DNA from: Terracoccus sp. 273MFTsu3.1 | GTDB taxonomy: Bacteria; Actinomycetota; Actinomycetes; Actinomycetales; Dermatophilaceae | Assembly (NCBI RefSeq): GCF_000383675.1 | Contig: NZ_KB911821.1 | Span: 744,001 to 808,000 of the forward strand | Direction: 5' to 3' | Length of the DNA stretch: 64,000 nt | Shown here: one piece after another, positions 30,415 through 42,112 of the stretch | How the letters are laid out: each line of letters starts with the position of its first letter | Numbering within the stretch: the stretch's first letter is position 1 | The notes under the pieces: model-generated | Databases searched by the model: none | What the model was told of the DNA's origin: nothing | The model's input: only the letters and a program-made list of their open reading frames with translations | Made by a program: the position numbers and the translations under genes

Positions 30415-30723
30415 TCAGAGCTTGATCTCGATGTTGACGTCCGCCGGCAGGTCGAGACGCATCAGCGAGTCGACGGCCTTGGGCGTCGGGTCGATGATGT
30501 CGATGAGGCGCTTGTGCGTGCGCATCTCGAAGTGCTCGCGGCTGTCCTTGTACTTGTGCGGCGACCGGATGACGACGAAGACGTTCTTCTCCGTCGGCAG
30601 CGGGACGGGTCCCACCACGGTCGCGCCGGCGCGCGTCACTGTGTCAACGATCTTCCGGGCCGAGTTGTCGATGACCTCGTGGTCGTACGACTTCAGCCGG
30701 ATGCGGATCTTCTGTCCCGCCAT
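30415..30723 (-). CDS. rpsJ: 30S ribosomal protein S10 (uS10)
   Basis: Product of 102 residues from ATG at 30723, giving the canonical N-terminus [19 protein letters not shown]. uS10 sits in the 30S head and joins NusB in antitermination. Motif [20 protein letters not shown] is intact. An in-frame ATG at 30771 would add 16 residues ([16 protein letters not shown]) not found in the family. It is the first gene of the S10 operon, behind a leader of about 250 nt. Confidence 0.97.
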
Positions 30724-30772
30724 CTGATGAACGTCTCTCTCTCGCTTCTGACTACCGGTTCCCTTGGCCATC

Positions 30773-30822
30773 CGACCCCCGAGGTCGGGCGTGTCGCGCC
30801 CGCTTCGCGGTGAAAGGTGCGC
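30773..30822 (-). promoter_or_regulatory. rpsJ: S10 operon leader boxes A and B
   Basis: Box A (30773-30796) and box B (30808-30822) lie in the long untranslated leader of rpsJ. The same boxes, 23 of 24 and 13 of 15 identical by eye, lie in the rpsL leader (42005-42028 and 42098-42112). On the mRNA strand, box A contains CCCGACCTCGGGGGTCG, which can fold as CCCGA-CC-TCGGG or as CGACC-TCGGG-GGTCG, two exclusive hairpins. A shared regulator or antitermination role is inference. Confidence 0.6.
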
Positions 30823-41561: not shown

Positions 41562-41935
41562 CAGCTCTTCTCCTTCTTCGCGCCGTAACGGCTACGAGCC
41601 TGCTTGCGGTTCTTGACACCCTGGGTGTCGAGCGTGCCGCGGACGATCTTGTAACGCACACCCGGGAGGTCCTTCACACGACCACCACGCACGAGCACGA
41701 TCGAGTGCTCCTGCAGGTTGTGGCCGACGCCGGGGATGTAGGCCGTGACCTCGATGCCCGAGCTGAGGCGCACACGGGCGACCTTGCGGAGGGCAGAGTT
41801 CGGCTTCTTGGGGGTGGTGGTGTACACGCGGGTGCACACACCGCGGCGCTGGGGCGAGCCCTTGAGCGCCGGGGTCTTGGCCTTGCTGGCCTTGTCCTGG
41901 CGGCCCTTGCGGACCAGCTGGTTGATGGTAGGCAA
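41561..41935 (-). CDS. rpsL: 30S ribosomal protein S12 (uS12), TTG start
   Basis: Product of 124 residues. TTG at 41935 gives [12 protein letters not shown], the family N-terminus, with GGAG 8 nt upstream; no ATG fits. uS12 controls decoding accuracy. The streptomycin-relevant Lys43 ([10 protein letters not shown]) and Lys88 region ([16 protein letters not shown]) are wild type. It opens the str operon behind a leader of about 270 nt with conserved boxes. Confidence 0.96.
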
Positions 41936-42004
41936 CCTGGTTACTCCATAACGTTGCTCGTGGTCAGTCACCCTGGCGGGCGACTCCTTGACTGTTCGGT
42001 CCCT

Positions 42005-42112
42005 CGACCCCCGAGGTCGGGTGTGTCGGTACCGGTACTTCCCCCTGCACTCCCCTGCTTCACGACGGCCGGGAGGCAGTCGGTGGGAAGGGTTGCCCGG
42101 CGAAAGGTGTGC
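42005..42112 (-). promoter_or_regulatory. rpsL: str operon leader boxes A and B
   Basis: Box A at 42005-42028 and box B at 42098-42112 (CGGCGAAAGGTGTGC on the plus strand) match those in the rpsJ leader. Here they are 69 nt apart against 11 nt there. On mRNA, box B comes first, then box A, then rpsL 69 nt later. The rest of 41936-42319 (384 bp) shows no gene; it holds this leader and the promoter. Confidence 0.6.

Follow-up and report, generated by a model that had tools for sequence, protein, structure and literature searches.

A 25-bp box in the rpsJ and rpsL leaders of Actinomycetes as a proposed operator of WhiA

Why would two ribosomal operons carry the same short sequence ahead of their first genes, and is this sequence read as DNA or as RNA? 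The question is raised by a stretch of 64,000 nucleotides from Terracoccus sp. 273MFTsu3.1 (contig NZ_KB911821.1, positions 744,001 to 808,000), hereafter called the window. On its minus strand lies the str operon, which consists of rpsL, rpsG, fusA and tuf and reaches 37543, and around 7 kb beyond it the S10 operon, in which rpsJ is followed by the gene for L3. The first-pass annotation had named rpsJ and rpsL as the genes preceded by the shared sequence, and NCBIfam models confirm both: rpsL (41564..41935, minus strand, TTG start), the first gene of the str operon, encodes the 30S ribosomal protein S12 (TIGR00981), and rpsJ (30418..30723, minus strand), the first gene of the S10 operon, encodes the 30S ribosomal protein S10 (TIGR01049 / NF001861). 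The best named match of the EF-G encoded in the window is that of Terrabacter sp. Root85, with 100% identity in the best segment.

Upstream of both genes, the leaders contain the sequence CGACAC[G/A]CCCGACCTCGGGGGTCG with one mismatch between the copies. A shared 24-nt box had previously been noted by eye, and it is real: minus-strand positions 30796-30773 and 42028-42005 are identical at 23 of 24 nt, and the ungapped score of the pair is 21, whereas 200 Markov-random sequence pairs scored 8.7 on average and 17 at most. As delimited here, the box is 25 bp long and spans 30772..30796 in the rpsJ leader (CGACACGCCCGACCTCGGGGGTCGG, minus strand) and 42004..42028 in the rpsL leader (CGACACACCCGACCTCGGGGGTCGA, minus strand); both copies are proposed to be extended operators of the regulator WhiA. 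The octamers GACACGCC at 30788..30795 and GACACACC at 42020..42027 (both minus strand) are exact instances of GAYACRCY, the WhiA core as defined in PMC11701221. In the rpsJ box, the G of GACAC lies 72 nt before the start codon. The downstream half of this box, CGGGGGTCGG at 30772..30781 (minus strand), comprises the conserved positions 16-25 and may represent a clade-specific auxiliary half-site, a role that is likewise proposed for CGGGGGTCGA at 42004..42013 (minus strand) in the rpsL box.

The box is rare in its own genome. Its 17-nt heart occurs in three exact copies, which are found in the rpsJ leader, in the rpsL leader and inside a coding frame. The sequence CGACACRCCCG is present at 20 places, only the two leaders having three mismatches or fewer to the 25-bp consensus; the next best place has six. 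Additional 25-bp operators in this genome were therefore dropped, all other CGACACRCCCG places having at least six mismatches. A repeat search of the sequence did not return the box among the 20 largest families shown. A lone GCGACACGCCCG half-site, which is not followed by a downstream half, was seen at G000:C1:297597-297607 (locus L209); it is apparently intergenic, and its neighbours resemble, by eye, genes for glucosamine-6-phosphate deaminase and a replicative helicase.

A second, 15-nt box had also been claimed for the two leaders, and this claim did not hold. The best common part is 12 nt long with one mismatch (CACCTTTCACCG at 30808..30819 on the rpsJ side and CACCTTTCGCCG at 42098..42109 on the rpsL side, both minus strand), and its score of 9 corresponds to the random level. 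Ten named loci, chosen as presumed near kin on taxonomy, were inspected for this box. On the rpsJ side, it is retained in one of seven named near-kin regions, solely in that of the nearest relative, L022. On the rpsL side, CACCTYTYGCCG, a sequence related to the second box, lies upstream of the rpsL box in five of the ten regions (L022, L023, L025, L027 and L058) and may be part of an rpsL-specific leader element. The promoters had been described as alike at both operons through a CGATTTG element, and this likeness extends to the near kin, in which GATTTG is present in 7/7 rpsJ and 10/10 rpsL regions. A consensus scan of the rpsJ and rpsL upstream regions reported no promoter, and the transcription start site (TSS) was estimated by eye from the CGATTTG element. 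The two leaders of L022 closely resemble those of the window, and in both of them the estimated TSS precedes the box by about 175-180 nt; in the other near kin the distance is roughly 140-220 nt.

Distribution of the box among Actinomycetes

The first-pass annotation had made its reading depend on conservation upstream of rpsJ and rpsL in relatives; such conservation is found for the 25-bp box and not for the second box. Relatives show the box as a delimited block of around 25 bp, which is placed in gene orientation, mainly upstream of rpsJ and/or rpsL, within the class Actinomycetes. With at most one mismatch allowed, a 20-base pattern was detected in 82 of 147 relatives and its reverse in none, and all 30 loci among the matches listed are located upstream of rpsJ or rpsL. 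The pattern GACACRCCCGNNNNCGGGG is present in 90 of 158 genomes of the class, and its reverse gave nine matches in eight genomes; this pattern has chance matches, as among the matches listed 25 of 30 loci lie upstream of rpsJ or rpsL and five elsewhere. The box searches yielded 111 distinct places, 53-224 nt before the start codon, of which 62 precede rpsJ, 46 precede rpsL and three lie elsewhere; since 40 stretches had been hand-chosen from the match list, 108/111 does not describe a random sample.

To these searches, a set of 80 named loci can be added that were picked by their EF-G and not by the box, L043 and 20 loci without rpsJ in the stretch being left out. The core together with the downstream half (CG[G/T]G allowed, 350 nt) was found upstream of rpsJ in 48/59 and upstream of rpsL in 23/79 of these named loci, and a stricter pattern searched over 700 nt in the same EF-G-chosen loci gave 44 rpsJ and 23 rpsL leaders. 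Both genes are preceded by the box in 13 of the 59 named loci that hold rpsJ and rpsL. The core follows one strand: within 300 nt upstream of rpsJ, GAYACRCY occurs in 48/59 loci on the sense strand and in 3 on the antisense strand (2.9 expected), and within 300 nt upstream of rpsL in 26/79 and 5 (3.6 expected), respectively.

The operon that carries the box differs between lineages. In one family with large genomes, presumably Streptomyces, CGACACRCCCGACCGCGTGGGTCG[G/A] lies 83-103 nt upstream of rpsJ in 11/11 genomes. Of the 29 genomes checked, the remaining 18 encode the WhiA domain HTH_WhiA, and the 320 nt ahead of their rpsJ contain no GAYACRCY. Among the 12 rpsL leaders from these 29 genomes, ten have the full box, one a half-site and one nothing, and the box is present in 9 of the 11 rpsL leaders from genomes without the rpsJ core. 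These counts come from 20 stretches read, 12 of which contained an rpsL leader (L261 was wrongly placed); ten of the 12 entered the test without fixed position that is described next. Some lineages thus carry the box ahead of rpsJ, some ahead of rpsL and some ahead of both genes, a choice that may reflect the way in which each operon is transcribed.

When the best 25-mer of each leader was taken with no position fixed, 92 of 177 leaders were within five mismatches of the consensus, none had six or seven, and the remaining 85 had 8-14. The 92 leaders match the whole consensus and thus show a clade-specific second motif downstream of the core, as would be expected of a WhiA operator. At positions 16-24, the information amounts to 1.1-2.0 bits in a set of 144 sites, 83 of which came from a pattern that also fixed positions 16-20. 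Outside positions 1-25 it drops, save for a preference for G of around 0.7 bits at positions 0 and -2 (144 sites). This set, for which two of 185 seed sites were dropped before counting, was seeded with GACACRCCC, so that positions 2-6 and 8-10 are fixed, as they are in the 144- and 73-site sets used for pairing below. A spread of the extended box beyond the class was dropped, because none of the 20 loci of other classes among the matches listed lies upstream of rpsJ or rpsL; five of these 20 correspond by eye to the coding motif DTPGHVDF.

Pairing of the leader transcripts

The box had originally been interpreted as part of a possible new ribosomal leader RNA. According to this explanation, it forms a hairpin in both leader transcripts, and this hairpin is the target of a ribosomal protein or of some other regulator that binds RNA. 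Its location inside the presumed transcribed leader and its gene orientation agree with this; moreover, hairpins can be drawn in single sequences, the inner CCCG/CGGG stem is nearly invariant, and in some relatives the 5' half pairs, by eye, with upstream stretches. However, the pairing is not maintained across relatives. Of 41 distinct sites obtained with no position fixed, 38 have CGACACRCCCG on the 5' side; hairpin A (CGAC/GTCG plus CCCG/CGGG) is intact in 21/41 without a single both-side change, and hairpin B (CCGACC/GGTCGG) in 7/41 with two. When the 3' half was fixed and the 5' half left free (29 distinct sites), one both-side change was counted for hairpin A and none for hairpin B. In the seeded set of 73 sites, from which two of 75 had been dropped for lacking CG at positions 16-17, the hairpins are intact in 44 and 21 sites with 0 and 2 both-side changes, and the seeded set of 144 sites shows 0 and 3; these sets carry no weight for any pair that has its 5' base within the seed, as changes there are invisible by construction. 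By comparison, an RNA beside the box in presumed Micrococcaceae has both-side changes in 11/17 pairs of a structure that was predicted from the same alignment. The sequence is thus retained and the pairing is not, which leaves a leader RNA unsupported, and the hairpin was rejected on the compensatory changes in the unseeded sites.

The comparison with known ribosomal leader families that had been suggested likewise returned nothing relevant. The window has no match in Rfam 15 at the gathering score, and with a permissive E-value, 12 leader loci and the rpsJ leader gave irrelevant weak matches alone. In primary sequence, the best sense score of the box against the 23S rRNA of its own genome is 8, within the random range of 7-13, and the 16S rRNA of two relatives gave no match above that range; mimicry of rRNA by primary sequence is not supported in these three molecules.

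A further argument against an RNA comes from the 11 of 59 rpsJ leaders without the box, whose genera we take to be Microbacteriaceae. All of them carry GACACGCCCG just upstream of TTGCA or TTGCG, which by eye resemble a -35 element. Since transcription should not include a half-site that lies upstream of a -35 element, the form recognised there would be DNA. Three loci (L053, L057 and L068) possess both the leader box and a half-site of the GACACGCCCG type. With no hairpin maintained by compensation, no relevant Rfam match, no primary-sequence rRNA match above random and half-sites ahead of a -35-like sequence, a new ribosomal leader RNA is not supported, and a protein-binding hairpin is considered improbable.

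Tandem copies of GACACGCC, spaced at 14 or 17 bp, were observed upstream of rpsJ in L067, L078, L079, L083 and L086, where they directly precede a -35-like sequence; the same factor may be used in another way at these loci.

A proposed operator of WhiA

The protein that is best matched by the box is WhiA. In M. gallisepticum, WhiA binds the rpsJ promoter and represses the rpsJ operon; its HTH domain binds the core GAYACRCY, its homing-endonuclease-like domain binds a second motif further downstream, the grip becomes looser in ATP, and elongation was barely blocked (PMC11701221). The same source reports that the core is found upstream of rpsJ in most species retaining whiA and that some clades have a second motif of their own; the Actinobacteria are named there as one of the groups whose operon is led by rpsJ. 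In S. venezuelae, ChIP-seq of WhiA placed a peak at rpsJ, at a distance of 75 bp to the start codon, and infA, rpsH, rpsA and efp are further targets, all of which, together with rpsJ, are lower in the whiA mutant (PMC3781837). The S. venezuelae site is GACAC, which has no consistent orientation over the whole regulon, and according to the authors further determinants must exist (Bush 2013, PMC3781837). Binding of WhiA depends on WhiB in this organism, for which no extra consensus is described (PMC4850268).

The genome analysed here encodes one protein with an HTH_WhiA match, which also contains the Pfam domains WhiA_N and LAGLIDADG_WhiA, and has eight matches to the WhiB-type domain Whib. HTH_WhiA is present in 149/158 genomes of the class; as WhiA is near-universal, finding it together with the box is hardly informative. 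An exact GAYACRCY is present in each of the two boxes of the window, one of which stands at the rpsJ operon of a bacterium that has kept whiA, as is known for WhiA operators. This analysis observed the box, its conservation, its placement, its exact agreement with the published core and a WhiA encoded in the genome, and on this sequence evidence the 25-bp box is very likely a DNA operator, to which WhiA would bind in this organism. Three routes had been suggested for coordinated control, namely a protein, an antitermination complex and a leader RNA; the exact core and a WhiA with three Pfam domains speak for the protein, and a leader RNA is not supported.

In the proposed mechanism, the WhiA operator is situated in the presumed transcribed leader of the str (rpsL) and S10 (rpsJ) operons, and with an operator at both, one regulator would set the transcription of both. 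The C-terminal HTH domain of WhiA would read GACACRCC. The downstream half CG[G/T]GGGTCGG, which starts 14 bp after the start of the core, would be read by the LAGLIDADG-like domain, possibly together with a WhiB-like protein such as the one that acts with WhiA in Streptomyces. If the analogy to Mycoplasma holds, the grip on this second half would depend on ATP, and the transcription of ribosomal protein genes would track the energy supply; we consider such ATP dependence about as probable as its absence. Repression and activation are close to even as the sign of regulation, and we lean only slightly to repression, since the published signs differ, WhiA being a repressor in Mycoplasma and rpsJ being lower in the whiA mutant of S. 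venezuelae.

Several findings count against a WhiA operator. The box lies around 140-220 nt after the estimated TSS in the near kin, compared with 22-40 nt in Mollicutes, and WhiA of M. gallisepticum barely blocked elongation (PMC11701221); its fixed gene orientation would suit an RNA or a polar mechanism; 18 of 29 genomes have HTH_WhiA and no rpsJ core; and the box is absent from 56 of 79 named rpsL leaders. The long distance to the TSS, the fixed orientation, the opposite signs of WhiA and the absence from these rpsL leaders keep our confidence in the operator below certainty and that in the mechanism lower still.

The box could instead be the operator of another DNA-binding regulator and include GACACRCC by chance. 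The S. venezuelae ChIP-seq peak at rpsJ is the sole evidence for binding in an actinobacterium that we are aware of (PMC3781837), the conserved block extends over 25 bp whereas the consensus of the WhiA regulon in Streptomyces is just GACAC, and WhiA occurs without the rpsJ core in the 18 of 29 genomes mentioned above. However, the box matches exactly an octamer that was determined independently, at the same gene and in another phylum (PMC11701221), and the ChIP evidence does place WhiA at rpsJ in an actinobacterium (PMC3781837). We regard a different regulator as quite improbable, even more so than the hairpin. A boxA-like antitermination or pause element that acts on RNA polymerase in both operons would fit the leader location common to two long and presumably highly expressed operons, but is hardly credible, given that the box is unlike boxA, that no terminator-like sites were found on the leader strand of the rpsJ or rpsL region and that half-sites are located upstream of the promoter in the presumed Microbacteriaceae.

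Read as a WhiA operator, the box resembles the rpsJ operator of M. gallisepticum (Fisunov et al. 2024, PMC11701221) in the sequence GAYACRCY, the gene rpsJ, the location downstream of the TSS and the clade-specific second motif after the core. In contrast to that operator, the second half is CG[G/T]GGGTCGG instead of GTTGT, the box lies around 140-220 nt and not 22-40 nt past the TSS, which is estimated here, and it is also found at rpsL. The main text of PMC11701221 contains neither rpsL, rpsG, fusA and tuf nor the term 'str operon', and rpsL is absent from the main text of PMC3781837. With the WhiA/WhiB regulon of S. venezuelae (PMC3781837, PMC4850268), the box shares the GACAC core and the target rpsJ, and WhiB-type genes are present here too; that regulon, however, is described as comprising mainly sporulation and division genes with GACAC alone, whereas the ribosomal sites have a common 25-bp block. 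Bacterial ribosomal protein leader RNAs (Eckert & Weinberg 2020, PMC7247131) occupy a similar leader position at ribosomal operons, but the box has no conserved secondary structure; 'uS10', 'uS12' and 'rpsJ' have no occurrences in the main text of that paper, and a single 'rpsl' in the L13 row is taken as rpsI.

WhiA at rpsJ is already known. The rpsL/str copy, the common 25-bp form specific to the class and the shifting between operons were not found in the main texts of the open literature covered here. According to one source, there is 'almost no information' on the control of ribosomal protein synthesis in Actinobacteria (PMC8470358). If the proposal is true, WhiA, which is known there for its role in sporulation and division, would be central to the coupling of ribosome production to the state of the cell in a large part of the class. 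Its control would also extend to the str operon products EF-G and EF-Tu. The extended site would also provide a concrete sequence for the question of how WhiA chooses its targets, which the authors of the ChIP-seq study left open (PMC3781837). It is tempting to speculate, with roughly even chances of being right, that across Actinomycetes the S10 and str operons answer to one energy-linked regulator through a single 25-bp extended WhiA (WhiA-WhiB) operator. In this view, CG[G/T]GGGTCGG would supply some of the missing specificity by which the small number of GACAC sites bound in S. venezuelae differ from all others among approximately 15,000.

Other candidate leader elements near rpsJ

Two further elements were observed upstream of rpsJ. 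The first is a structured element between the box and rpsJ, with GNGAGGAACCCG...GGATTCRG inside a covarying helix, which is found at L047:13626-13692 and in 22 further loci (alignment A3), at L062:13829-13921 and at L137:1518-1584. The genera of L047 and of the 22 further loci are presumed to be Micrococcaceae. Of 24 members, 23 were aligned and L062 was left out; 11 of the 17 predicted pairs show both-side changes. One member gave no match in Rfam, and when 59 + 65 sources were searched with a model of the element, neither the window nor any locus of another family matched it strongly. It is a candidate ribosomal leader RNA.

The second consists of long rpsJ leaders, around 330 nt upstream of rpsJ, in L053, L057, L060, L064, L067, L068, L070, L073, L074, L078, L079, L083, L086 and L101 (alignment A2). 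One of them had no match in Rfam. They have several conserved blocks, around CACTGCCAGGCAGTGCATAG, AGGCCGCGGGCAGCAG, TTGACAGAAGAACAG and GCGTCCAATGC...GACGC, and are possibly leader RNAs.
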